A stretch of 26,462 bases of DNA, from contig WJIO01000229.1 in the NCBI GenBank assembly GCA_014730235.1, positions 1 to 26,462 of the forward strand, in the 5' to 3' direction. How positions within the stretch are numbered: the first letter of the stretch is position 1; each line of letters starts with the position of its first letter. Source of the DNA: Candidatus Poribacteria bacterium. Lineage in GTDB: Bacteria; Poribacteria; DTPJ01; WJIO01. The notes under the pieces were generated by a model. That model was not told the origin of the DNA. It did not search any database and saw nothing but the letters and a program-made list of their open reading frames with translations. Positions 408 to 15,438 of this stretch are shown one piece after another. The position numbers were made by a program, and so were the translations under genes.

Positions 408-3400
408 ATGAAATTAATAAAGATATTGACATCTATTTTATATATGATAGCTATAAATTCAGGTTATGCCTTGGGTGATACGGCAGATGAAATAATAAAA
501 GCTACAGGGATCAAAGGTGGATTGATAGTTCATGTTGGTTGTGGTGATGGCGAATTAACCGCTGCTTTTGGCTTAAATGATGGTTATCTGGTTCAGGGAT
601 TGGATGATGACCCCGAAAGTATCCAGGAAATCCGTCAACATATACATAGCCTTGGTCTTGATGGCAAAGTAACCGCAGAATTATGGAATGGTGATAAACT
701 TCCATATATTGATAACCTTGTAAATTTATTAATATGGGAGGAATCCCTTAAAGCTCCTATGGAAGAGATCTTCCGGGTATTATGCCCTGATGGTGCTGCC
801 TATGTTAAATTGAGGGATAACTGGCTTAAATTCGTCAAGAACCGTTCAAGCGATATTGACGAATGGACTCATTTTCTCCATGACTCCAATGGCAATCCTG
901 TTTCCCATGATTCAACTTTAGGGCCACCGCGTCATATACAGTGGGTAGCTGATCCTGCATGGACTCGCAACCACCATAAACTAAATAGCATCAGCGCTGT
1001 TGTTTCGGCTAGAGGCAGAATTTTTTATATAGCGGATGAGGCCACAGCCGCCTCTATGCTTGTTCCCGATAAATGGTTTCTGACTACAAGAGATGCTTTT
1101 AATGGTGTATTATTATGGAAAAAGCCGCTGGAATCATGGGCATGGCATGAACAAAGATTTCGCTCTGGTCCTGTCCAGCTTCCCAGAACTCTTGTAGCCT
1201 TTGAAAATCGGATTTATTGTCCACTGGGTATAAATGAACCATTGGTAGCTCTGGACGCTGCTACAGGAAATTTAATCAGGATGTATGAGAACACCCTGGG
1301 TGTTGAGGAAATAATACTTCATCAGGGAATTATCCTGGCTGTTTTAGGTTCGCCGGAAGCAGAACAGGCAAGTATTGAAAAACAAAGACGAGGGGAAGAT
1401 GTTAGCATAAGCTCCAAAACCATAAAGGCTATAAACGCAGAATCAGGAACACATCTGTGGAAATGGTTGGATTCAACAGAATCGAGACTCATGCCCCTGA
1501 CACTGGCGGCTGATGGTGGTTCAGTATTTTTCCAAGCTGGGGATAACATTATTTGCCTAAATGTGAAAACCGGGGAAAAAATATGGAAAGTAAAAGCTTC
1601 AGATGCCAAAGGAAACAAAGAAACAAGGAAAATCGGTTGGTCTGTAGCGTCTCTGGTAATACACAATGATAAAGTATTCTGGTCTGATGGCAACGTCTTA
1701 AAAGCTTTATCCGCTAAAAATGGTGAAAATATATGGCAGGTTGAAGCCCATCCGGGATTCCTGTCACCAGTGGATATTCTGGTATCGCAAGGCCTGGTCT
1801 GGATAAGCCCTGAATACAACATTGGCCGCGACCTTAAGACTGGAGAGATTAAAAAAGAATTGGTTAACTTAGATGACCTGAGAACATCAGGTCATCACCA
1901 TCGCTGTTATCGTGAAAAAGCCACAGATGATTATATCATCGGCGGATATCGAGGTATGGAATTTCTAAGCCTGTCATCTGATAAACATTCCCGTAATAAC
2001 TGGGTTCGCGGTTCCTGTCAGTATGGAATATTACCCGCCAACGGCCTTGTATATGTGCCTCCTCATTCCTGCGGATGCTACATGGAAGCAAAGCTTTATG
2101 GTTTCTGGGCTTTGGCTCCGGAAAAAGAAGATCCTATTTATAATTTCAGCACTTGGGATAACAAACTGGAAAAGGGCCCAGCCTTTGGAAAGGTAGAAAC
2201 GCCTGAAAATGACAATAACACGCCCTGGCCCACATACAGGCATGATATAATGCGAACAGGAGTTACCCCTGAAAGTATATCCCCGGGGATCAGCGAAAAA
2301 TTTATTATTGATATAGGCGGGAGGTTGACCAGCCCTGTAATAGCCAGAGGTAAAATGCTGGTATCATCAGTTGATTCTCACAGAATCTATGCCTTTGATG
2401 CAGATACCGGAAAAGAGATATGGAATTATATCGTCGGTGGACGGATAGATTCTCCTCCCACAATCCATAAAGGTCTGGTGTTATTTGGTTCAGCCGATGG
2501 TTGGATCTACTGTCTCAGGTTATCTGATGGTCAATTAGTTTGGCGTTTCCGGGCGGCGCCGCTGGATATAAAAACTGTGGCCTTTGATCAACTGGAATCC
2601 CTTTGGCCAGTACATGGCAGTATTCTGGTAAAAGATGGTCTTGCTTATGCTGCTGCTGGCCGTCAATCTTATATAGACGGCGGAATTTTTCTTTACTGCC
2701 TGAACCCATATACAGGCGAGGTAATCCACAGAAAAAATATCAGGCATGAACACCCAGAAACTGACGATGATACAGATTCAGGAGAAGTACAGATACTCAC
2801 TCAGAATGCTGTGGATGCAAAAACATTAAATGACCCTGATTTAAGCGATGCTTTTTCCATGAATGGCGCCAAAAACGACGTGTTGGTAAGTGACGGTAGT
2901 TCGATATTTTTAAGGCAGTTGAGGTTTGACCGTAATCTGGAATTGCAGGAAAATAAAAGCCGGCATTTATTTTCCACATCCAGTCTGCTGGATGATACGG
3001 AAAATCACCGCTCCCATTGGGTAATTGGCACCGGTGATTTCAGCCGTTTGCCAGTAGCATATTCGTGGATCGCCAACTCTCTGAAAGGCGGCTTTGGTTA
3101 TCACCTGGCTGTTCCATATGGTCTTATGCTCTCGTTTGATGATAATGCAGTCTGGGGGATAAGACGTATCAAAAATTACGAATACATGGTCTTTGCCGAA
3201 AGCCATAAACCTTTTTCTGACGACGAAAAATCCCTGCCGGATTTTAGGAAATACGACAAAGATTATTCACCCGAATTCAAATGGACAGAGCACCTGTCCA
3301 TAAGACCAAGGGCTATATTAAAGGCAGGCGAAAACCTGTTTATCGGCGGTATGCCAAAAGATATTAACGAACATGATCCCCACGCCAGTTATGAAGGCCG

Positions 3401-3557
3401 CAAAGGTGGAATAATGTGGATTATTTCAGCAAATGACGGCCAGCAAATTGGCGAATACAAACTGGAATCGCCGCCGGTGTGGGATGGAATGGCGGCGGCG
3501 TATAAACACATTTACATTTCTCTACAAAACGGGAAAATTTTATGTCTGGGTAAATAA
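408..3557 (+). CDS. Exported PQQ-type beta-propeller protein with N-terminal methyltransferase-like domain
   Basis: The 1049-residue product starts with a signal peptide (about residues 1-22). Residues about 28-150 resemble a class I SAM-dependent methyltransferase core, with a glycine-rich motif I (VHVGCGDGEL) followed by the acidic run LDDDPES and a later LCPDGAAYVKL strand. The rest is two sets of PQQ/BamB-like repeats, with motifs such as ALDAATGNLI, AFDADTGKEIWNY and LRLSDGQLVWRF, divided near residue 600 by WPTYRHDIMRTG. Between them lie HHHRCY (about residue 496), RGSCQYG (about 535) and HSCGCY (about 553), a cysteine set that could bind metal or form disulfides. Proteins of this layout are known from planctomycete-type genomes as PQQ-binding-like proteins without a proven role. 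The substrate is unknown, and an exported methyltransferase fold is puzzling. It converges on the minus-strand operon with a 28-base gap. Confidence 0.8.
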   Translation: MKLIKILTSILYMIAINSGYALGDTADEIIKATGIKGGLIVHVGCGDGELTAAFGLNDGYLVQGLDDDPESIQEIRQHIHSLGLDGKVTAELWNGDKLPYIDNLVNLLIWEESLKAPMEEIFRVLCPDGAAYVKLRDNWLKFVKNRSSDIDEWTHFLHDSNGNPVSHDSTLGPPRHIQWVADPAWTRNHHKLNSISAVVSARGRIFYIADEATAASMLVPDKWFLTTRDAFNGVLLWKKPLESWAWHEQRFRSGPVQLPRTLVAFENRIYCPLGINEPLVALDAATGNLIRMYENTLGVEEIILHQGIILAVLGSPEAEQASIEKQRRGEDVSISSKTIKAINAESGTHLWKWLDSTESRLMPLTLAADGGSVFFQAGDNIICLNVKTGEKIWKVKASDAKGNKETRKIGWSVASLVIHNDKVFWSDGNVLKALSAKNGENIWQVEAHPGFLSPVDILVSQGLVWISPEYNIGRDLKTGEIKKELVNLDDLRTSGHHHRCYREKATDDYIIGGYRGMEFLSLSSDKHSRNNWVRGSCQYGILPANGLVYVPPHSCGCYMEAKLYGFWALAPEKEDPIYNFSTWDNKLEKGPAFGKVETPENDNNTPWPTYRHDIMRTGVTPESISPGISEKFIIDIGGRLTSPVIARGKMLVSSVDSHRIYAFDADTGKEIWNYIVGGRIDSPPTIHKGLVLFGSADGWIYCLRLSDGQLVWRFRAAPLDIKTVAFDQLESLWPVHGSILVKDGLAYAAAGRQSYIDGGIFLYCLNPYTGEVIHRKNIRHEHPETDDDTDSGEVQILTQNAVDAKTLNDPDLSDAFSMNGAKNDVLVSDGSSIFLRQLRFDRNLELQENKSRHLFSTSSLLDDTENHRSHWVIGTGDFSRLPVAYSWIANSLKGGFGYHLAVPYGLMLSFDDNAVWGIRRIKNYEYMVFAESHKPFSDDEKSLPDFRKYDKDYSPEFKWTEHLSIRPRAILKAGENLFIGGMPKDINEHDPHASYEGRKGGIMWIISANDGQQIGEYKLESPPVWDGMAAAYKHIYISLQNGKILCLGK

Positions 3558-3585: not shown

Positions 3586-5724
3586 TTACATAATACTTTC
3601 TATCTCAGAGATCGCTTTAGATTCCAGTTTAAGTGCTTCTTTCAATATCCTGATTTCCTGCAGTCGTACTTCTTCCGAACGACTCTGTTCTTCCCCGGAA
3701 TTCCATTTATCGTCAAGAAGTGCTTCTAATACCTTAACTTCATATTCATATATCTTCACGGCCCGTTTCAGAGCTTCTCTCTTTTCACCACCAAGAACAT
3801 TTGACCAACTTCTGAGAAATTTAACGGCTGATATTCGGGCATCATACAATGATGTATAATTCCACCAGTTAATCCCATCTAGCCCTTGTTGTGATTCCTC
3901 TGCAAGATTATCAAATTCTTTCAGGTCATTGATCCACGCAGAAAAGGCAGCTTCACCATACCAGTATTCCCTACCTTCGATACCACCATTATGTTTTTCC
4001 CGCTTCCAGTTTTTTACAGCGTTCTGCATAGCCTTAAGTAATACATCCTGATAGGAATGCGGATTATTGTGATCTCCAAGATAGGTTTGCAAACCCACAA
4101 GCTTTTCCACCGGGAGTTTGGCTGGATGTTCGTCTTTCATATAATCGCTTATAAGCAATATTTTTCCGTTATCCTCGTAACCATAAATTAAAGCCATGTT
4201 CCAGTGTTCTGGATAAGCGACTACAGGTTTACCGGCATCAATGGAGGCAACAATTTTCTTTCTGAGTTTCTCATTGTCCCGACCATCCGCATCCAGCCAT
4301 TCCGTGGGTAAACTCCATCCTGTAAGTTCGATCAGATTTTTCTGCTCATCGGGCATTTCACCGATAGCACAAGACGGACACCACTTGGTTTCAGTCTTGT
4401 CATTGCACCACCTGACGCGAAATGCAAGACCGCTCAAGCCCATAATATCTTCGTATTTGTATGGATGCTGGGATACTTTCATAGCTTCAGCAACAGCTCC
4501 GGCGAACGTGCAATCCTGTCCTTCACCAAACTTTAAATTTCGTATATTTTTAATCCATACCTTGCCGTTTTCCCGCTTTATCTCTGCTGGATTCCTGGCC
4601 TGTATGGCCCGTTCCGGTGTGATTTCTTTCAATGACATTTCTATCTCCTTGATGCCCTTTGCATAGTTATCGCGGGCTTTAGTAAGTAATTTGGCAGCCT
4701 GATAGGCCTTTTCAGGATTCGCATCCTTATAACCTTTGAATACTTCATTACCAATTCTTCCTAAAATATTTGATTCCGTTTCAAAGTATTGTGCAGCATT
4801 AAGAAAGTGCTTTGAAACGTCAGGATATTTAGGAGCTAATTCCCGCATGAATTCTGCCGCTGCTCCTCTTATACTTTTACACCATCCCAGGGTATAGTAG
4901 TCTCCGCTATAGGGAACTTTGTGATCAGGTTTGCTTTTGAAATCATGTACCCATACATCATAGCATACCAAACCCTCATGAAAATGGTTGGGCTTCTCTA
5001 TATCCCCCGGTGAATGGGCATGACGAACGGCCTCTTCAAGGGCGGATAATTCAGCTTCGGAAGCATCAAATTCCCGAACTTTATCACCGATGAGTATTGC
5101 TCCATAAGCAGGACAAATATCCAGGCATGTAGCCATGCGCTTTTCATCAGCTACAGCCAATTCACCATCCTCACCCATATAACGATCATAAGAACCATAA
5201 CCAATGAATTGCTTTTTTTCGTCATCAAAGCCAAATACCACATCCCACTCAGCGAAGGTAAAAGCGTGCCAGACTAGCACCGGATGTCCTGCGCGAATCT
5301 CTTCTTTGATTCTTGGGGTGATTTTAAGCACTTCCTCGTCTGGCACTATTTTATCATCGGAAAGGTCAAGATGCTCCATTTCATATCCCATCAACTCAAC
5401 AAATTCAGTTGGCTCATAAGCAAGGCTGCATGTAGGCGCGCAGGGACACGGGCCGGCAATACGGAAAGCCGCACCTGAAATCCCCTGAATATAAGCCGGA
5501 GAATACTTTTCACCTTTCTTTGACAGGATGATTCTTATGCTCTCAAACATGGGATCTTTAACCCGATAACGGTCTACACCATCAATTATTATTCTGGTCT
5601 GGTTTTCCATATTCACTCCTGAAATGTTCTGGGATGCGTTTGCTTGATATGTTGAAGCAGATGTAACAAATGTTAAAATGATAACGTATAGAATTTTTTC
5701 TTTTTCAATAAACTTTTGTCTCAT
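3586..5724 (-). CDS. Exported protein with two BtrH/C39-like modules
   Basis: The product is about 712 residues. I place the start at the second in-frame ATG (5724), because the AAGG at the end of the upstream gene is correctly spaced for it; a start at 5733 would sit directly against that AAGG. A signal peptide follows (ILYVIILTFVTSASTYQA). Two tandem modules can be read, about residues 45-385 and 390-712. Each has a GxSGxAFR motif, a cysteine cluster (CPCAPTC in the first, WCPSC in the second), a glycine-proline-valine strand (GHPVLVW, GKPVVAY), a hydrophobic strand ending in GF/GY plus DD/ED, and then a charged helical region. The pattern resembles the BtrH N-terminal/C39-like papain fold, but the catalytic Cys and His positions are not conserved. 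It is the last gene of an operon with a related three-module protein. Function unknown. Confidence 0.72.
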   Translation of the reverse strand: MRQKFIEKEKILYVIILTFVTSASTYQANASQNISGVNMENQTRIIIDGVDRYRVKDPMFESIRIILSKKGEKYSPAYIQGISGAAFRIAGPCPCAPTCSLAYEPTEFVELMGYEMEHLDLSDDKIVPDEEVLKITPRIKEEIRAGHPVLVWHAFTFAEWDVVFGFDDEKKQFIGYGSYDRYMGEDGELAVADEKRMATCLDICPAYGAILIGDKVREFDASEAELSALEEAVRHAHSPGDIEKPNHFHEGLVCYDVWVHDFKSKPDHKVPYSGDYYTLGWCKSIRGAAAEFMRELAPKYPDVSKHFLNAAQYFETESNILGRIGNEVFKGYKDANPEKAYQAAKLLTKARDNYAKGIKEIEMSLKEITPERAIQARNPAEIKRENGKVWIKNIRNLKFGEGQDCTFAGAVAEAMKVSQHPYKYEDIMGLSGLAFRVRWCNDKTETKWCPSCAIGEMPDEQKNLIELTGWSLPTEWLDADGRDNEKLRKKIVASIDAGKPVVAYPEHWNMALIYGYEDNGKILLISDYMKDEHPAKLPVEKLVGLQTYLGDHNNPHSYQDVLLKAMQNAVKNWKREKHNGGIEGREYWYGEAAFSAWINDLKEFDNLAEESQQGLDGINWWNYTSLYDARISAVKFLRSWSNVLGGEKREALKRAVKIYEYEVKVLEALLDDKWNSGEEQSRSEEVRLQEIRILKEALKLESKAISEIESIM

Positions 5725-5735
5725 TTTATCCATCC

Positions 5736-6137
5736 TTATTTGCTCTTAACACCAAATTCCTTTTTAACACTAAACAGCTTAGAACCGCAGGACTGGCAAG
5801 TTTCCTCAGACCATGTATACCCTCTTCCGCATTGATTGCAACTCCAGCGCTTTTTCTGTTCAACAAGCCATGCTGGAATACCAATTTCCTTAATCCTTAA
5901 CCCGTGTTGCAGAACTGTTTTGTGGTGTATATATCCGTCATTATCAAATTTCATTATGTCCTCACAGGGATATTCATCACACAAAGGACAGGCTTCGATG
6001 CCCTTATCCTGTGCGCACTTGATGAATTTGCAGTTTGGACTCCAATGAGTATCGTCTATTATTTTACATCCTTTACATCCCGGCGTACTGCATGCCCCGC
6101 AGTAGATGCCGCAATATGAATCAAATTGTATTTTCAT
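5736..6137 (-). CDS. DUF3795-type Cys-rich zinc-binding protein
   Basis: The 133-residue product begins CGIYCGAC, followed by PGCKGC, a CKFIKCAQDKGIEACPLC segment and YPCED. This is the recognisable layout of DUF3795 proteins, small cysteine-rich proteins thought to bind zinc or another metal. After about residue 98 comes a second unit, CNQCGRGY plus CQSCGSKLF, which is a zinc-ribbon-like C-terminal addition. No signal peptide is seen, so it should be cytoplasmic, unlike its two exported neighbours. An AGGAGA site precedes the ATG by 5 bases and overlaps the stop region of the upstream gene. Its own stop is followed within a few bases by the next gene, so all three genes are probably made from one mRNA. 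Its role is not known. Confidence 0.8.
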   Translation of the reverse strand: MKIQFDSYCGIYCGACSTPGCKGCKIIDDTHWSPNCKFIKCAQDKGIEACPLCDEYPCEDIMKFDNDGYIHHKTVLQHGLRIKEIGIPAWLVEQKKRWSCNQCGRGYTWSEETCQSCGSKLFSVKKEFGVKSK

Positions 6138-6146
6138 TTATGTCTC

Positions 6147-9100
6147 CTATTCTTCCAATCCTGCAACGATTTTCCCTAAAAATTCAATTCCCTTTGCTTC
6201 AGAGGCTTTAGCAGTTTTGAGATAATCTACAGCCTTATGTCGCTTCTCTGCATCTTCAATATTCTGTTTCCATTCTTCCTGTATTTTTCCTTTTAGCGGG
6301 AAAAGCTTTTCAACCTCGTTCAGGCTATCGCTCACAATGCTGTATTGTTCTATAGCAGGTTGGAACAAGCTGTTATACTTCATATCCATGCGCTGATTTG
6401 CCTCTTCCAGGAAATCCAGTGCATATCTGCGGCATTCAGCCCATATAGCCGCATGGTATGCAGCACCAAAGGCATCAACTTCACCGGTTTCCAGTCCCTT
6501 CATCCAGTTATCATATCCGGCAAGACCGCCATCTCTGGAATCATCAACAGCCCATTTTGTATTTATGGCAAAGGATAAGGCATCTTTTACTGTTTTCATA
6601 TCATCGGCTTTCTGACCGGGTCGGATTGACCAGAGATCAAGAAAACCCACAGCGCCTATACCAAATTTCCGCCAGTCTTCCGGGGGATCATCTCCCACCG
6701 TCAAAGCGCCAGACAGGAAATAGCCGTTATCGTCATATCCGTTAATCACCATAAATTCATAGTGCCATCCGTAGCATGGAAATCCATTATCAATAGACTC
6801 TCGGACAAAATCCCAGCCTTTTTGTAAGTTTTCTTCTTTATCTTCGTTGGTGTAAAAGCCCTTTGCTTCGTAGCCAATATTTTTGCCCAGTTTGTTTACA
6901 GTAGACCAATTCCAACAGTGAGGACCGCTTCCGCATAAGTCGGTGCCAATATTCATTATGAAAGCATGTCCTGTGCTGCCATACAGCCATCCGGGGGAGA
7001 CTTCAATACCGAGATGTTTCAGGCAGCCTTCCAATGCTCCTATATGGGTTGTTGCTCTGGGAACAGAATTCAAATTACCAAGTATATACCCATTTTCATG
7101 GATTTCCAGAAATGTTCTTAATTCATCTATAGCTTTTTTCTCATGTTCTAATGCTTTCCGTATCCCCTCCGCTCCGGCCATGCGATGTTCTTTTATTTTC
7201 CCCCATCCTTCGCCGCCGCCATAGCTCAAGTGATTAAAAAACTGCTTCCAGTATACATAAGCAGCTTTGTATTCATCAGCCGCTTTAAGCAGGTGCTTAT
7301 TCAGCTTATCAGGAAATACATTTTCATCAGCTACCCATTTAAGGTATATAGATGAAGAATTACGGATGGGCCATTGAGGATTCATGCCATGACATGATCC
7401 AAAGTCTTCAAATTTTTCCATGTCAGCGCAGTTTTTGCCGTAAAGCTCGATACCGGCCAAACCCCAGGTTGCCTCTGGATATCTTTTAACCAGATGTTCC
7501 GGCGGGTTGGTGCTCCATTCCACCAGGTCTTTTATCACTCTTAAAGCAACCGCATTTTTGGGTTTTGTGGGAACTCGCTCTGTGTGACGACCGAATTTGG
7601 TTGTCTTCCAGTTTTCCATGCGTTTTATATACTCGCCAAATTCTTTCCATGACCACCATTGGGAGTAAGTGTCGGGCCCATCGGCCATAGCGTATACTTT
7701 TCTATCCTCTGGTTCCAGCGCGTCGTGATAACCCGCAAACATGATGTTTTCCCAATCCCATCCTTTTACAGATTTGCCTGAATCAATACTTTCTTTAATT
7801 AATTCCCACGCTCCTTCTATACCGTCAAAGTCAACCCATTCATATCCGAATCCGGTGGCTTCTGCTATACGATCATCCATACCTATATGCAGGTTGGCGT
7901 ATTTGGGCATAAAAGTACCTTCTTCATAGGCAAATAAAGCCGAAGCGCCGGAAACTGCCGCTATCTGATCGAAATCCACATCCTTCCAACCAGCCGCTCG
8001 CATCTGAACCAGATGCAAACTCAGGTATACACATGGCTGGGTATATACTTCATCTCTAACGGTTACTGCGTGATGTCCAATTCTACCTGTAAGATAATCA
8101 AATTCCTTTACGTCTTTCTCCAGAAGCACCTCTGAATAAACCATTTTCTCCTCCAGGGATAGAACTGTTTCCAGTTCCTTTATGGCTTCTTTCTCCAAAG
8201 CCAAAACTTCTTTAAGCACATTCGCCTCAGCATGGCGCATCTCGGCAGTCCACTTTTTACCATCCTTTAACGCCCAGGGATAGGGGGCATATTCAAAACC
8301 CTCTTTTAGTTTGTCCAAAATCTCCTGGTATATATCAGCAGCTTTTGTCAGGTGTGGAATACTTTCTTCACTAAAGAGGTCTGGTATGGAACGCAGGTAT
8401 TTGATGGCGGCTGATCTGGCATCTCCCAGGCTGGAATAAGACCAGGCGTTGGCATGTGTGCTGTATGACCCGGACTTTTCCTCGTCCTCAAAGTTCTTGT
8501 CATTAAGAAGGTCAGCAATCCAGGTCTCGTATGCATTAAATCCACTGGTATAATCATCATATTTATCCGCACTGGCAATTTCCACAGCGATTCTGATAGA
8601 CTCCAGAGCAATTTTCTTCCTGTCTGGTTTCTCTGTCTTTTCCTTGATAATTTCCACAACCCAGGGCCATTTTTCAGCCTTTGAATATTCTTCTGTTTCA
8701 TCGTAATAAGTCCGGCACAGGAATTCTTTTCCCCAGTCAGTATAGCCGACTATCACACCCCAGTCCGGAACATTTTTTAGATCAATAGCAACAACGGGAT
8801 AGCCTCTATCAATGCTTTCAATAACGGCGTTTCTTACCTTCTCAACCTCCGCCTCATTTTTATTGCTGGAATGTATGCCTGCTGATTTATAACCCATGGC
8901 TTTCATGGCGGCTTCGCCGTGATTATACCCGCATGTCGCATCCGGCGCGCTGGGACACCAGCCCGGATGGTGAATGTGCAGCCTGAAGGCAGCACCGGAC
9001 ACACCCATGAGATAATCATAGGTTACATCCTCGCCCATGGCCTTCATTGTCACCGTTAAAGCACCAATGTATGTGCTTTCCATACCTTTACCCCATTGAA

Positions 9101-9299
9101 GCCTTCCAACACCATCAATCATATTTTTTTCCTTTGTCATTTCTTTTGATACTCCTCCTGCTTGTTTGGTTTCCATAGAAACCAAATTTAATTCGCCAAA
9201 TATAGATTCTTCGGCCTTAATTGTTTGAATTGTTACAAACGTAAAAAAAACAGCAGTTGTCATAAATACCCAACCCAATATTTTAGACTTTCCTATCAT
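6147..9299 (-). CDS. Exported protein with three BtrH/C39-like modules
   Basis: The product is about 1050 residues. The longest frame begins at a TTG (9317), but the ATG at 9299 has a good AAAGGTGG site 5 bases upstream and directly precedes a clean signal peptide (KILGWVFMTTAVFFTFV), so I use it. Three tandem modules of about 310-350 residues can be seen (near residues 55-387, 388-735 and 736-1050). Each starts with a BtrH N-terminal/C39-like region: GVSGAAFR, AVSGASALF or GSTGHAFIM, then PVV-like strands and GYTD, GYHD or GYDDNG. Each ends in a charged helical bundle rich in Glu, Lys and Ala. Modules 1 and 3 carry a cysteine pair (WCPSAPDATC, CGSGPHC). The expected nucleophile Cys and the His before the GY motif are missing, so peptidase activity is doubtful. 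First gene of the operon; the substrate or ligand is unknown. Confidence 0.72.
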   Translation of the reverse strand: MIGKSKILGWVFMTTAVFFTFVTIQTIKAEESIFGELNLVSMETKQAGGVSKEMTKEKNMIDGVGRLQWGKGMESTYIGALTVTMKAMGEDVTYDYLMGVSGAAFRLHIHHPGWCPSAPDATCGYNHGEAAMKAMGYKSAGIHSSNKNEAEVEKVRNAVIESIDRGYPVVAIDLKNVPDWGVIVGYTDWGKEFLCRTYYDETEEYSKAEKWPWVVEIIKEKTEKPDRKKIALESIRIAVEIASADKYDDYTSGFNAYETWIADLLNDKNFEDEEKSGSYSTHANAWSYSSLGDARSAAIKYLRSIPDLFSEESIPHLTKAADIYQEILDKLKEGFEYAPYPWALKDGKKWTAEMRHAEANVLKEVLALEKEAIKELETVLSLEEKMVYSEVLLEKDVKEFDYLTGRIGHHAVTVRDEVYTQPCVYLSLHLVQMRAAGWKDVDFDQIAAVSGASALFAYEEGTFMPKYANLHIGMDDRIAEATGFGYEWVDFDGIEGAWELIKESIDSGKSVKGWDWENIMFAGYHDALEPEDRKVYAMADGPDTYSQWWSWKEFGEYIKRMENWKTTKFGRHTERVPTKPKNAVALRVIKDLVEWSTNPPEHLVKRYPEATWGLAGIELYGKNCADMEKFEDFGSCHGMNPQWPIRNSSSIYLKWVADENVFPDKLNKHLLKAADEYKAAYVYWKQFFNHLSYGGGEGWGKIKEHRMAGAEGIRKALEHEKKAIDELRTFLEIHENGYILGNLNSVPRATTHIGALEGCLKHLGIEVSPGWLYGSTGHAFIMNIGTDLCGSGPHCWNWSTVNKLGKNIGYEAKGFYTNEDKEENLQKGWDFVRESIDNGFPCYGWHYEFMVINGYDDNGYFLSGALTVGDDPPEDWRKFGIGAVGFLDLWSIRPGQKADDMKTVKDALSFAINTKWAVDDSRDGGLAGYDNWMKGLETGEVDAFGAAYHAAIWAECRRYALDFLEEANQRMDMKYNSLFQPAIEQYSIVSDSLNEVEKLFPLKGKIQEEWKQNIEDAEKRHKAVDYLKTAKASEAKGIEFLGKIVAGLEE

Positions 9300-9371
9300 T
9301 ACAGCCACCTTTCGCAAAAAGAGGATGAAGCTTCCACCAAACCTTCAATATAATTAACGTATGTTAAGTAT

Positions 9372-9400
9372 ATTGTAACAAAGAAACATTGTCCTGTCAA
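9372..9400 (-). promoter_or_regulatory. Sigma-70-type promoter of the three-gene minus-strand operon
   Basis: On the minus strand a perfect -35 box TTGACA (9395-9400) is separated by exactly 17 bases from TACAAT (9372-9377). Transcription would start near 9365, leaving a leader of about 65 bases before the ATG at 9299. It is one of the strongest promoter matches in the window. Confidence 0.75.
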
Positions 9401-9519: not shown

Positions 9520-10911
9520 ATGAAAATAGCAATCTGCGGTATCAGGCATGAAAGCAATTCTTTTTCAACATTAACTACAAAACTGGATGATTTCCGCATT
9601 ACGCGCGGGGAAGAAATACTTCAGGATTCATTCTGGTCATCATATCCCGACGTGGAATGGAAGCCAATCCTGATAGGCAGAGCAGGCCCTCATGGTCTGG
9701 TAGATAAAGGTGCATATATATCAATGCGGGATGAGATTATAGAAGGATTAGAGCAAAACCTTCCAGTTGACGGTGTTTACTTGAGCTTACACGGTGCAAT
9801 GGATGTTGTGGATGTAGGTGATGGTGAAAGCGATCTCATAACCCACATCCGGAAAGTTGTTGGTGATGATATACCCATTACCGGAAGCCTTGACCTTCAT
9901 GCCAATGTCTCGCCAATTCTGGCTGATTCCACATCAGCTTTAACCGCTTACAGGACTTCACCCCATATTGACGGTGCAGAAACCCGTAAACGGGCTGTAG
10001 ACCATCTGATAAATATACTAAGCACAGGAAAACACACCAGAAATGTGCTTATCAAACTTCCCCTTCTGCTTCCGGGAGAATATGCTGTAACAGAGGTAGA
10101 ACCAGCAAAATCCCTATACACCAAGCTCTTTGATATAGAGAAACGACCCGGTATTGTAGACGCGTCTATACTTATAGGTTGCGCATGGACAGATTCCGAA
10201 TATACATCTGTAAGCGTGATAGTAGTAGGTGAAGAGGATAGCCAGGAAGCAGACGCATGCGCAGTTGAACTTGCTCAGGATATATGGAGTAAAAGACATG
10301 AATTTAAAGCAGAGGTAGAAACGGTTTCAGTCGAAGAAGCTGTAACTAAAGCCATGAATTCTGAAATTTATCCGGTGGTAATATCCGATTCCGGGGATAA
10401 TGTAACAGCCGGTGGTGCTGGTGATACGCCTATTATGCTGGATGAGCTTCTGAAAGCTCATGCAGAAGATGCAGTAATTGCAGGCATAACAGATCCCGAA
10501 GCTGTTGATAAATGCGTGGAGTCTGGAACCAACTCAGTAATTAAGTTGAATCTTGGTGGCAAATTGGATACTTCAAACGGCTATAAAAAACAAATTACCG
10601 GCATTGTGGGTAATGTTGTACCTTCATGTATGGCTGTTGTAGCTATGAATGGTATAAAAGTGATAATCACCTCAGATCGAAGGGCTTTTACAGATACTCA
10701 AGGTTATAAGCAGGTGGGTGTTGATCCCCTGAAGGAAGAGATTATCGTCGTAAAAGTTGGGTTATTACATGGTAAAATAAGGGATATTGCCAAAAAACCA
10801 ATTATGGCCATGAGTCCGGGATTTACTTCATTATTGCTGGATGAATTACCATATAAGCGTCTGAAACGTCCAATATTTCCCCTGGATGACTTATCCCAAT
10901 TCAATGTATAA
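9520..10911 (+). CDS. M81 (MlrC-type) metallopeptidase
   Basis: The 463-residue product matches the M81 family, whose named member MlrC (microcystinase C) cleaves linear microcystin fragments. Family motifs appear in order: RHESNSF (9-15), YLSLHGAM (87-94), GDGE (100-103), SLDLHANVS (123-131), YRTSPHIDGAETRKRA (144-159) and SDSGDNVTAGGAGD (289-302). His91, Asp125, His127 and His149 are candidates for the metal site, judging from their conservation. The length is close to the usual 480-500. There is no signal peptide, so it should be cytoplasmic. Most M81 proteins are not microcystin degraders, and the natural substrate here is probably another peptide or amide. It appears to stand alone under its own promoter, and the next gene begins about 170 bases downstream. 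Confidence 0.88.
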   Translation: MKIAICGIRHESNSFSTLTTKLDDFRITRGEEILQDSFWSSYPDVEWKPILIGRAGPHGLVDKGAYISMRDEIIEGLEQNLPVDGVYLSLHGAMDVVDVGDGESDLITHIRKVVGDDIPITGSLDLHANVSPILADSTSALTAYRTSPHIDGAETRKRAVDHLINILSTGKHTRNVLIKLPLLLPGEYAVTEVEPAKSLYTKLFDIEKRPGIVDASILIGCAWTDSEYTSVSVIVVGEEDSQEADACAVELAQDIWSKRHEFKAEVETVSVEEAVTKAMNSEIYPVVISDSGDNVTAGGAGDTPIMLDELLKAHAEDAVIAGITDPEAVDKCVESGTNSVIKLNLGGKLDTSNGYKKQITGIVGNVVPSCMAVVAMNGIKVIITSDRRAFTDTQGYKQVGVDPLKEEIIVVKVGLLHGKIRDIAKKPIMAMSPGFTSLLLDELPYKRLKRPIFPLDDLSQFNV

Positions 10912-10933
10912 AACGATTAACCTTAAAGTTATT

Positions 10934-10972
10934 GGCTTTATGGGGTTTAATGTGGAAATAATTTGAAAATTC
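10934..10972 (+). repeat. Decayed left end of the MITE found at 15461 and 20190
   Basis: Aligned without gaps to the first 39 bases of the element at 15461, this stretch matches at 29 positions. The match includes the shared GTGG followed by AATAATTTGAAAA. No right end or inner palindrome could be found downstream, so it is either a solo end or an old, eroded copy. It lies in the 170-base gap before the glycosidase-like gene. Confidence 0.45.
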
Positions 10973-11080
10973 ACTATACTAATACATCTACTGAAATTGA
11001 TGCGCATGGGATTTCGCAGACTCAAACCAATATATAAATAATGATACACAAAAGATTTAGCAACCTGAGAGGTGATTGTT

Positions 11081-13714
11081 GTGATTAAGTTTTCAGTTTT
11101 AGGTTTAATTATAATATTACTGATATTTATAGAGGAGAATAACATTATAGGAGCTACGATTAAAGTCATGCGGTCTGAGGATGCCTATACTGAAAATTTA
11201 GTCAAAAATGGTAATTTTGAAAGCCTTCAGGATAAACAGATTCAGGGTTGGTCTGCATATAAACAGGGTTACGAAACCGGGCCGGGACAGGGACGCGGGG
11301 GATCGGTTGCCGCATACTGCCGGAATGAAAATGCCGGTGATCAGAAAGGCATAAGCCAGACTCTGGAGCTTGATCAGAAAAGAAGCCTGCCACTGCTGGT
11401 CAGGGGTTGGAGTAAGGCCGAAAACGTCAGCGGAGGCAGGAGTTCCGGTTACTCCCTGTATGTGGATATAACGTTTCAGGATGGCACTAACCTGTGGGGA
11501 CAGACGGGGAATTTCAGCACAGGAACACATGATTGGGAGAAGCAGGAAGTCTATATCATCCAGGGCAAGCCTATAAAACGATTAAACATATACGGCTTGT
11601 TTCGAGGACATAAGGGTCAGGTGTGGTTTGATGACATGGAAGTGTTTGAGATGGGTGGGGGAGAAAGTTCCCTGCTGGACGGCGTTCCGGTGGATTTAAG
11701 CGAAGTTTCCACAGGGGAGGATTACGTTATGGGATTGTTTGAGATGTCCACAGGTGACGGTATGGATATATCCTACGACTTCGGACGAGGCAGTCTTACA
11801 TCGATGAAGCTGGATGGTAAAGAGATCATGTATAAAGACATTCCATCGGGCTTCCTGGTCAGAGATGTGGAGGCCAACTCGGATTTTTACTCCTTTGAAG
11901 GAGGCATCTGCCAGGAACTGAGCCTGGCTCTGGACGCAAGGCCTGACGAAAACTCGACAGACAACTTTGTGCATATGTCGGGACAGATTACAGACATTAC
12001 CGGCAGGGAAAGGTCAATAACCCTCTTGTTCACTATTCCAGTGGATGCCACAGGCTGGAAATGGCATGACGACGTGAGAAGCCACAGAACAATAGAACCT
12101 GATAGAGAATACATCAACGCTGTAAACATCAAAACCGGCTCAACAGGCATGATGTCCCTGTATCCCTTCGGATGTATAACCAGCGAGGATAACGGCCTTG
12201 CCATCGGTCTGGATATGGACATGCCGGCCCAATACCGCATCGCTTACAATTCGGGTACAAAGCAATTTTTCATTGCCTACGACTTCGGTTTAGCCAAAGA
12301 GACGGATAAATTTCCCGGCTCTGCACCCTTCAGGTTTGTGATATACAGGACAGACCCGGAATGGGGATTCAGGTCGGCAGCTAAGAACCTGTATAACATT
12401 TTCCCACAGCATTTCGTGTGTCGATCTAAAGACCAGGGAATATGGATGCCTTTTACTGACGTAAGCACAGTAGAGGGGTGGGAGGACTTTGGATTTAAGT
12501 ATCACGAAGGTATAAACAACGTTCCTTTTGATGACGAAGCAGGCATACTGAGCTTTAGATACACTGAGCCGTCTACATGGTGGATGAGCATGGATCCTGG
12601 AATAGAGCGAACCCATGAGAATATAATGAAACAGCTTAATGAGTACGCCAGATCCGATGATTCCCGAAAGCGAAGATCGGCGGAAGCCACTATTATATCC
12701 GGTTCTTTTGATGAACAGGGAAGATATCAATACCAGGTGCGCAACACTCCCTGGAGCAACGGCGCGGTGTTCAGTTCCAACCCGAACCCGTATATCCCCG
12801 GTAATTCCGAAGCATATATTAGCTGGAATGACGAAATCAAAAGGCGGCTGTATGGCCCTGATACAAAGGGCGAACAGGACGGCGAATACCTGGATTCGCT
12901 GGAAGCCTATGTGACAGCTACAGAAAACTTCAGGAAAGAGCATTTTCAGTACGTCAACGTACCACTGACATTTTCCACAAACTCCAAAAAACCAGTGATC
13001 CATAAAATCTTTTCGGTCTACGAATTTTCCCGATGCCTGGCCAGGGATATTCACCGGATGAATAAACTTATGTTCGCCAATTCTGTACCACACAGGTTCG
13101 CTTTTCTGTGTCCGTTCTTCGACGTGATGGGCACAGAGATGAACTGGGTGGGTGCAGATGGAAGCTGGAATCCAGCGTCAGATAGCTGGATGAATCTGAA
13201 ACGCACCATGTGCTATCAGAAGCCGTATCTGTTCCTTATGAATACCCGTTATGAGAACTTCCCTCCTGAACTGGTGGAAAAATACTTCCAGAGAAGCCTC
13301 TTTTACGGCATGTATCCCAGCATGTTCAGCCACAACGCATCCCAGGACCCATACTGGAAAGCACCGGAATTTTATAACCGGGATCGTCATCTGTTTAAAA
13401 AATATATACCCATTATCAAACGGGTAGCAGAAACCGGGTGGGAGCCGCTGACATACGCTAAAACCGACAATGAAGCTGTATATGTGGAACGCTTCGGGCC
13501 TGACGAAAAGGGTAATGTGTATTTTACGGTATTAAACGATTCGAGGGAAGAACAGAAAGTAATTATGGAGATTACATCACATGTTAATATAAAGGATAAG
13601 CTAATAGATATTGTGTCTCAAAAAGAAGTCAAATTTAGCAAGAATGGTAAAACTGTATCTTTAGAATTGGATTTATCACCAGAACAGGTAATGGTTTTTA
13701 ATTTATCAAAATGA
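11081..13714 (+). CDS. Exported CBM-containing glycosidase-like protein
   Basis: The product is about 877 residues. A GTG at 11072 opens the frame, but GAGAGGTGAT is ideally placed for the GTG at 11081, so I take that one. A hydrophobic N-terminal segment (VLGLIIILLIF) is a signal peptide or anchor. Next comes a jelly-roll carbohydrate-binding region of CBM4/9 type (about residues 35-190: NLVKNGNFE, then HDWEKQEVYI and KGQVWFDDMEVFEM). A beta-rich region follows to about 440, and then a probable TIM-barrel with GEYLDSLEAYV, TFSTNSKKPVIHKIF, FLCPFFDVMGTEMNW and MYPSMFSHNAS. A beta-sandwich tail closes the protein. This layout fits a large polysaccharide-active enzyme, but I cannot name the GH family or its catalytic acids. 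Its stop overlaps the start of the sigma-54 activator gene (ATGA), so the two are translationally coupled. The ends of the gene are clearly more AT-rich than its centre. Confidence 0.7.
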   Translation: MIKFSVLGLIIILLIFIEENNIIGATIKVMRSEDAYTENLVKNGNFESLQDKQIQGWSAYKQGYETGPGQGRGGSVAAYCRNENAGDQKGISQTLELDQKRSLPLLVRGWSKAENVSGGRSSGYSLYVDITFQDGTNLWGQTGNFSTGTHDWEKQEVYIIQGKPIKRLNIYGLFRGHKGQVWFDDMEVFEMGGGESSLLDGVPVDLSEVSTGEDYVMGLFEMSTGDGMDISYDFGRGSLTSMKLDGKEIMYKDIPSGFLVRDVEANSDFYSFEGGICQELSLALDARPDENSTDNFVHMSGQITDITGRERSITLLFTIPVDATGWKWHDDVRSHRTIEPDREYINAVNIKTGSTGMMSLYPFGCITSEDNGLAIGLDMDMPAQYRIAYNSGTKQFFIAYDFGLAKETDKFPGSAPFRFVIYRTDPEWGFRSAAKNLYNIFPQHFVCRSKDQGIWMPFTDVSTVEGWEDFGFKYHEGINNVPFDDEAGILSFRYTEPSTWWMSMDPGIERTHENIMKQLNEYARSDDSRKRRSAEATIISGSFDEQGRYQYQVRNTPWSNGAVFSSNPNPYIPGNSEAYISWNDEIKRRLYGPDTKGEQDGEYLDSLEAYVTATENFRKEHFQYVNVPLTFSTNSKKPVIHKIFSVYEFSRCLARDIHRMNKLMFANSVPHRFAFLCPFFDVMGTEMNWVGADGSWNPASDSWMNLKRTMCYQKPYLFLMNTRYENFPPELVEKYFQRSLFYGMYPSMFSHNASQDPYWKAPEFYNRDRHLFKKYIPIIKRVAETGWEPLTYAKTDNEAVYVERFGPDEKGNVYFTVLNDSREEQKVIMEITSHVNIKDKLIDIVSQKEVKFSKNGKTVSLELDLSPEQVMVFNLSK

Positions 13715-15438
13715 ACTGTAAAGACATATTAAACAACATATCCGAAGGTGTCTTAACCCTTGACACTGAAATGAAAATTGTGGATTTCAATACAGCGGCA
13801 GAGGAGATTACCGGCTTTACGGCAGAAGAAGCCGTAGGTAAACCTTGCAGCCAGATATTCAGGACGGCTATGTGTAAACAAAACTGCCCACTGGTATCTG
13901 TATTGGAAACCGGGAATCCTATACCCAACTACGACGTAATTGCCCTGCGAAAAGATAATACCGAAATCCCCCTTAGAATTAGTTCCAATGTGCTTAAAGA
14001 TGAAAAGGGAGAGCTAGAGGGATTGGTGTGGAATTTCAGGGACGCGACGGAGATCAGGAATCTGATGTGGGAAGTGGTGGACAAGCATACCATAGCCTTG
14101 GAGGAAAACGCAAAGCTGGAGATAATCCTGGACAGCATTGCCGAAGGTGTGTTTACCATAAATGCCAACTGGCAGATAGAAAGCTTTAACGCCGCCGCTG
14201 AACGCATTACCGGGTTTACTGCTGACGAGGCCATAGGCAGGCCATGCTATGAAGTATTCAGGAGTGACATGTGCGGGGAAAACTGCGCCCTGGCCCGATC
14301 CCTTGAAACCGGAGAGCCAGTTTCCGGCTGTGAGGTAAATATAACAAGTAAAGACGGCAAACGGGTTCCCATAAGTGTAAGTGCCTCGGTGCTTGTAAAT
14401 GATGACGGTCAGGTAATCGGTGCTGTAGAAAGCTTCAGAGACCTTTCGGAGATCAAAAGGCTTACGGCTGAAGTGCATGGTCAATACGATTTCAGCAACA
14501 TCATAGGCAAATCAAGGGATATGCAGCAGATTTTTACACTTATCAAAAATCTTTCTGATACCGACGCAACCGTATTGATCCGGGGAGAAAGCGGCACAGG
14601 AAAAGAACTTGTGGCCAAGGCCATACATTACAACAGCCTTCGACGGGATAAGCCTTTTGTAGCGGTAAGCTGTGCAGCTTTGTCTGAAAATCTTCTGGAA
14701 AGTGAACTTTTCGGGCATGTGAAAGGCTCTTTCAGCGGCGCGGTGATGAATAAAGCCGGAAGGTTTGAAATCGCCGATAAGGGAACGCTGTTCCTGGATG
14801 AAATAGGCGACATAAGCCCAAACGTCCAGATAAAGCTCCTTCGGGTGCTTGAGAGCCAGGAATTTGAAAGGGTAGGAAGCGTCCAGACCATAAAAGTGGA
14901 TGTAAGGCTTATTGCGGCTACCAATAAAAACCTGGAAAAAGCCATAAAGGAAGGTGATTTCCGGGAAGACCTGTTTTACAGGCTGAATGTTGTGCCTATC
15001 TACATACCACCTTTACGAGAACGAAGCAGAGATGTTCCCCTTTTGGTGGAGCATTTCATAAGGCTTTTCAACAAGAAAACGGGTAAGGAGATAACAAAAG
15101 TATCACCAAAGGCAATGGACTTGCTGCTGGATTATCCCTGGCCCGGTAACGTGCGAGAACTGGAAAACGCCATAGAACATGCCTTTGTCCACTGCCAGAC
15201 CAGCACCATCATACCCGACCATCTGCCGGGATCATTACAGAAATCCGAATCGTTTATAGCAGATAAAGCCCTGTCCAGCGATAATCCCCTGGAAGCGGCG
15301 GAAAAGCAGGTGATCCAGAAAGCGCTGGAAGAAAACCAATGGGATCAGAATCGGGTTATGGATTTGCTGGGGATCAGCAGGACTACTCTGTGGAGGAAGA
15401 TGCATAAGTATGGAATAAAGAGGCCTGTGGGATTATAA
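13711..15438 (+). CDS. Sigma-54-dependent transcriptional activator with two PAS sensor domains
   Basis: The 575-residue product has PAS 1 (about 1-115), PAS 2 (about 133-250), an AAA+ sigma-54 interaction domain (about 260-490) and a Fis-type helix-turn-helix (about 530-570, ending GISRTTLWRKMHKYGI). Walker A is GESGTGKE (292-299) and Walker B is TLFLDE (359-364). The sigma-54-contacting loop reads GSFSGA (339-344) in place of the usual GAFTGA. The arginine-finger region FREDLFYRLN and LRERSRDVPLL are present. Each PAS domain carries C-x8-C-x3-C (Cys46/55/59 and Cys179/188/192), which suggests a metal, Fe-S or redox sensor. There is no receiver domain, so sensing is probably direct in the cytoplasm. 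Overlap with the glycosidase-like gene suggests a linked job. I found no convincing -24/-12 promoter in the window. Confidence 0.92.
   Translation: MNCKDILNNISEGVLTLDTEMKIVDFNTAAEEITGFTAEEAVGKPCSQIFRTAMCKQNCPLVSVLETGNPIPNYDVIALRKDNTEIPLRISSNVLKDEKGELEGLVWNFRDATEIRNLMWEVVDKHTIALEENAKLEIILDSIAEGVFTINANWQIESFNAAAERITGFTADEAIGRPCYEVFRSDMCGENCALARSLETGEPVSGCEVNITSKDGKRVPISVSASVLVNDDGQVIGAVESFRDLSEIKRLTAEVHGQYDFSNIIGKSRDMQQIFTLIKNLSDTDATVLIRGESGTGKELVAKAIHYNSLRRDKPFVAVSCAALSENLLESELFGHVKGSFSGAVMNKAGRFEIADKGTLFLDEIGDISPNVQIKLLRVLESQEFERVGSVQTIKVDVRLIAATNKNLEKAIKEGDFREDLFYRLNVVPIYIPPLRERSRDVPLLVEHFIRLFNKKTGKEITKVSPKAMDLLLDYPWPGNVRELENAIEHAFVHCQTSTIIPDHLPGSLQKSESFIADKALSSDNPLEAAEKQVIQKALEENQWDQNRVMDLLGISRTTLWRKMHKYGIKRPVGL

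Follow-up and report, generated by a model that had tools for sequence, protein, structure and literature searches.

The amide synthases CcbD/LmbD and CtaG, which are of the BtrH type (PDB 7yn1, 9qvj), are single-module enzymes of two-domain architecture. CcbD, which carries out carrier-protein-dependent acyl transfer, and CtaG both require a Cys-His-Glu/Asp triad; for CcbD this is reported to be Cys-His-Glu (PMC12945683), and CtaG mutants C11, H128 and D144 are named in PDB titles. Peptidases of the C39 and Peptidase_C39_2 families lack a helical C-domain. The azinomycin aziridine synthase subunit AziU3 (PDB 8gs1, 7wuw), a biosynthetic enzyme in complex with AziU2, was described as a novel fold (PMC11168924). 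Among regulators, ECF sigma factors whose C-terminus is extended by membrane and periplasmic regulatory parts form an established class (PMC8999054), and the extensions described for the class of ECF52 SCO4117 and IutY are carbohydrate-binding or anti-sigma.

The window analysed here is a stretch of 26,462 nucleotides from a Candidatus Poribacteria bacterium (contig WJIO01000229.1). It contains a three-gene operon on the minus strand, running from 9299 to 3586 in the order A, DUF3795 gene, B, with intergenic gaps of 9 and 2 bases. Residue numbers of A count from the TTG at 9317, where the mechanical open reading frame begins; the ATG at 9299 has an RBS-like GGTGG ahead of it and a hydrophobic N-terminal segment after it. 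The features are as follows.

9372..9400, minus strand: sigma-70-like promoter TTGACA-N17-TACAAT, with TG before the -10 element (consensus match, 11/12)
6147..9299, minus strand: gene A, predicted exported three-module protein, 1050 aa from the ATG at 9299
8145..9128, minus strand: module A1, residues 64-391 (family profile; AlphaFold2 model pTM 0.79)
7095..8066, minus strand: module A2, residues 418-741 (family profile; AlphaFold2 model pTM 0.71)
6150..7085, minus strand: module A3, residues 745-1056 (family profile)
5736..6137, minus strand: DUF3795 protein, 133 aa, cysteine-rich, with a C-terminal zinc-ribbon-like stretch (Pfam PF12675)
3586..5733, minus strand: gene B, two-module protein with an N-terminal hydrophobic segment, 715 aa
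4621..5595, minus strand: module B1, residues 47-371 (family profile)
3589..4563, minus strand: module B2, residues 391-715 (family profile)

All elements of the arrangement first noticed in the sequence are present: two proteins of exported type enclose a DUF3795-type gene in a tight operon, and the near-perfect promoter ahead of it (9400-9372) agrees with TTGACA-17-TACAAT at 11 of 12 positions, purely as a match to consensus. Export of A and B is predicted from their hydrophobic, export-type N-termini. Elsewhere in the window, a plus-strand gene at 408-3557 encodes a protein whose hydrophobic N-terminus is followed by an N-terminal methyltransferase-like domain and, fused to it, PQQ/BamB-type beta-propeller repeats. 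The plus-strand genes at 9520-15438 encode an M81/MlrC metallopeptidase-family protein, an 880-aa protein with no Pfam match and a PAS-PAS-sigma54 activator that scores best to PrdR, under the PrdR cutoff. A DDE transposase fragment lies close to the contig end (25814-26287, plus strand).

Self-comparison and a family profile made from window and foreign members show that A and B consist of three and two modules of one family, each of about 330 residues, as originally predicted. BLASTP of A against B gives E values of 8e-30, 1e-20 and 6e-6, well above chance, and the profile matches each of the five modules at 2e-80 or better, although it itself contains these modules. The recurring motifs GxSGxAFR, (H/K)PV and GY(D/E)D are indeed present but looser than first described, with A2 reading AVSGASAL and A3 GSTGHAFI. 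No Pfam model passes its cutoff for the module, either in the window proteins or in the relatives scanned. Specifically, BtrH_N (PF14399, cutoff 29.7 bits) scores 20.9 bits in A and 12.2 bits in B, and Peptidase_C39_2 (PF13529, cutoff 24 bits) scores 16.5 and 13.5 bits. A search of PDB sequences with one protein and with a 15-row profile gave no meaningful match, and in PADLOC neither A nor B matched a defence system, while the DUF3795 protein had just a weak match (E 0.025).

AlphaFold2 models of A1 (pLDDT 72.9, pTM 0.79) and A2 (pLDDT 67.0, pTM 0.71) were built from a six-row alignment. For both, the top Foldseek match is AziU3, with E values of 7e-8 for A1 and 6e-4 for A2. VIA-align places AziU3, CtaG and CcbD at the top for both models, with Z scores of 17.8 to AziU3, 16.8 to CtaG and 16.0 to CcbD for A1, and of 15.1, 13.1 and 13.9, respectively, for A2. 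These alignments run from the N-domain through to the end of the helical domain, so that the two-domain architecture of the BtrH-type amide synthases is held in common at Z 13 to 17. Lower rows for A1 cover single domains: the C-domain is matched by helical bundles at Z 13.4 or less, and the N-domain by C39 peptidase domains, among them those of PCAT1 and ComA, at Z about 9.4.

The agreement of the two queries over both domains indicates that the BtrH/C39-type fold in the original prediction was right, with the caution that both models derive from the same shallow set of six sequences. Judging from these models, A1 and A2 would each consist of a papain/C39-like N-domain and a helical C-domain, as in BtrH, CcbD, CtaG and AziU3, and A3, B1 and B2 probably adopt this fold by homology to them. 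The structural match also puts AziU3 beside CcbD and CtaG in one match list.

Catalytic positions were assigned from the sequence alignment and from where the helices lie, not from superposed coordinates. In A1, Thr82 occupies the nucleophile slot, where the first helix begins, and Asp185 the His slot, six residues ahead of the G in GY. Counts over 82 aligned rows are approximate, since window modules are repeated and some poorly aligned members are included. The nucleophile slot is T in 35 rows and S in 8, and no row has C there; in 16 rows C is the residue just before it. The His slot is occupied by E (28 rows), D (19), N (6) and H (1). The strings reported for the nucleophile region (STYIGAL, TQPCVYL, ATTHIGAL, PMFESI and QDCTFAG) read as quoted. 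Thus, as far as sequence and secondary structure indicate, a Cys-His-Asp/Glu triad of the kind used by CcbD, CtaG and the C39 peptidases is not recognisable in any of the five modules, in agreement with the proposed lack of C39-type catalytic residues. When 81 genomes from the window's phylum were scanned for the BtrH_N family, one genome scored above cutoff, so no canonical triad-bearing reference was obtained.

Some modules nevertheless carry candidate residues close to these slots. In A2 and B2 a Cys directly precedes the nucleophile slot. The original statement that the His before GY is absent from all five modules holds at the slot itself, but two residues upstream of that slot A3 (GWHYEF) and B2 (EHWNM) carry a His. 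Conservation of the Cys in the B2 clade, and of the His in part of the A3 clade, would fit an alternative in which A and B are divergent cysteine acyltransferases or peptidases whose active-site residues have shifted in some modules. However, B2 is the only module with both residues, its closest relatives lack that His, and the A2 Cys is replaced by Tyr in an Anaerolineae relative. We therefore regard shifted cysteine enzymes as very unlikely.

The absence of a cysteine triad does not by itself settle the matter of catalysis. AziU3 is not known to have a catalytic cysteine, and it appears to form the aziridine by sulfate displacement, a non-cysteine chemistry. Because AziU3 functions as an aziridine synthase (PMC12559475), loss of the triad need not mean loss of activity. 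The main rival to a sensory role is accordingly that the modules are active enzymes of this sort, modifying a small molecule outside the cytoplasmic membrane through Thr and acid residues of the N-domain. The rank of AziU3 as closest structural match of both models favours this idea, as do the conserved N-domain residues, which include the acid in the His slot, and a W-C-P-S loop Cys found in several module types. On the other hand, the slot residues vary among the five modules and among clades, and exported arrays of three in a row are unusual for enzymes. Sigma-factor fusions among the relatives also speak for sensing instead, and we consider non-cysteine catalysis unlikely.

These fusions are found in six relatives (L018, L034, L042, L093, L098 and L100), in which sigma70 regions 2 and 4 score above their Pfam cutoffs in the same protein as the module. 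In most of them a membrane-helix-like stretch lies between the sigma part and the module; the module occupies the same architectural place as the extensions of ECF52 SCO4117 and IutY. At least four more proteins (L038, a second protein of L042, L094 and L095) look, by sequence, like fusions of the same kind. Coordinates are L018:562-2532, L034:516-2276, L038:4371-6083, and L042:1309-3198 and 4359-6284; the L018 fusion gene is followed by a second ECF sigma gene. Another relative, L103:2319-4895, is an 859-aa protein with a C-terminal module behind about 530 residues that have no Pfam match.

Paenibacillus cellulosilyticus carries five module copies on one replicon, again partly next to regulators. 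One module gene lies just downstream of an ECF sigma gene, and a start 13 bases behind the sigma stop fits this arrangement when start codons are read; a module pair lies downstream of a WYL-HTH regulator gene. A further module is joined to a laminin-G domain, and another is downstream of an EamA transporter gene. A search of the literature found no paper linking BtrH, C39 and a sigma factor.

Since relatives of the modules are fused to or lie beside transcription switches, the domain probably binds and senses small molecules and does not make or cut them. The most likely explanation is a sensor system with a dead acyltransferase fold, in which the N-domain pocket may still bind small molecules. 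We assign a probability of about 0.5 to the reading that A and B are extracytoplasmic small-molecule-binding, mainly sensory, proteins with a triad-less BtrH-type fold. The original prediction of binding, possibly sensing, and not of a peptidase thus gains backing from the fusions and adjacent regulator genes in relatives, from which the function is read, whereas its scaffold role found no support.

Against sensing in the window itself stands the fact that the operon has no sigma factor or regulator gene; the Pfam scan found sigma70 regions 2 and 4 in neither A nor B. With no regulator fused there, the role of A and B would be that of exported binding proteins, which take up a ligand or present it, and the cytosolic DUF3795 protein may be an accessory. 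Moreover, sensing is probably not the sole role of the family. Signal peptides are missing from many relatives. In one branch that lacks them, from several families of the window's phylum (L009-L015, L019-L021 and similar loci), the module genes lie beside a gene that belongs to one shared cluster. One representative of this neighbour cluster was identified by Pfam, the L010 protein, an ABC-transporter membrane protein whose N-terminus is longer by about 230 residues. This transporter context would also suit the non-cysteine enzymes considered above.

The middle gene of the operon passes DUF3795 (PF12675) at 32.4 bits against a cutoff of 22.6, covering only profile positions 39-82 of 83. There are two DUF3795 genes above cutoff in this genome, and both lie beside module genes; by a rough estimate, the chance of two out of two doing so in a 5.5-Mb genome is about 1e-5. 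The second locus (L092:371-4199, contig C270) is a same-strand row of genes for DUF3795, DUF6144, a TAT-exported module, a GyrI-like protein and a GNAT protein, a setting that points to small molecules and so favours the binding reading. DUF3795 was not found in the four other module-bearing genomes of the phylum that were searched (G005, G006, G007 and G010), which argues that its link to the modules is local to this lineage.

The GyrI-like and GNAT genes of this locus, together with the EamA transporter gene upstream of one Paenibacillus module, bear on another alternative: that the exported multi-module arrays trap antibiotics, be they aminosugar, lincosamide-like or other, outside the cell. 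A thiooctose is bound in the CcbD pocket (PMC12945683), which would be in keeping with such a sponge. However, the sigma-factor fusions suggest signalling, there are few copies per locus, and the ligand is only putative, making drug sequestration quite improbable.

Compared per domain, the window modules included in the comparison are 18-31% identical to A1, and the types differ mutually at about 25%, yet each has closer relatives in other genomes: A1 at 48%, A2 at up to 61%, A3 at about 42%, B1 at 46% and B2 at 33-35%. In a tree, every module falls into a separate supported clade with relatives from other genomes. Local tandem duplication is ruled out by this pattern, which implies that A and B arose by fusion of old paralogs that had already specialised. 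Within module types the N-domain is better conserved than the C-domain, with the exception of one B2 pair. Together with the divergence between types, this favours the binding reading, and each type may have its own ligand specificity.

Multi-module proteins are otherwise scarce in our searches. The one other example found is a two-module protein in G010, which is encoded directly behind an A1-type gene and ends in a B2-type module. The synteny foreseen for this locus therefore recurs in part, as this A1-type gene followed by a two-module gene and as the second pairing of DUF3795 with a module in the same genome, but the 3+2 gene trio was not found in the other genomes searched.

The family is present in 29 of 84 genomes of the window's phylum and in 14 of 201 genomes of Chloroflexota, the phylum of an Anaerolineae metagenome-assembled genome (L004) that carries a relative. 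In a plasmid collection, module A1 had one match, in Paenibacillus, and two relatives had none; the family is thus also found there. It occurs in at least three phyla and has no passing Pfam model. We tentatively propose, at somewhat less than even odds, that in this uncatalogued family the fold of natural-product amide/aziridine synthases lost its triad and came to serve as an extracytoplasmic small-molecule sensor, which is joined in some members to ECF sigma factors through membrane helices and is built here into exported arrays of multiple specificities. If true, the family would clearly exemplify how the fold of a biosynthetic enzyme can become a domain for receiving signals, a protein family without a Pfam model would gain a name, and the fusions would offer a group of ECF sigma factors in which a new input domain can be tested.
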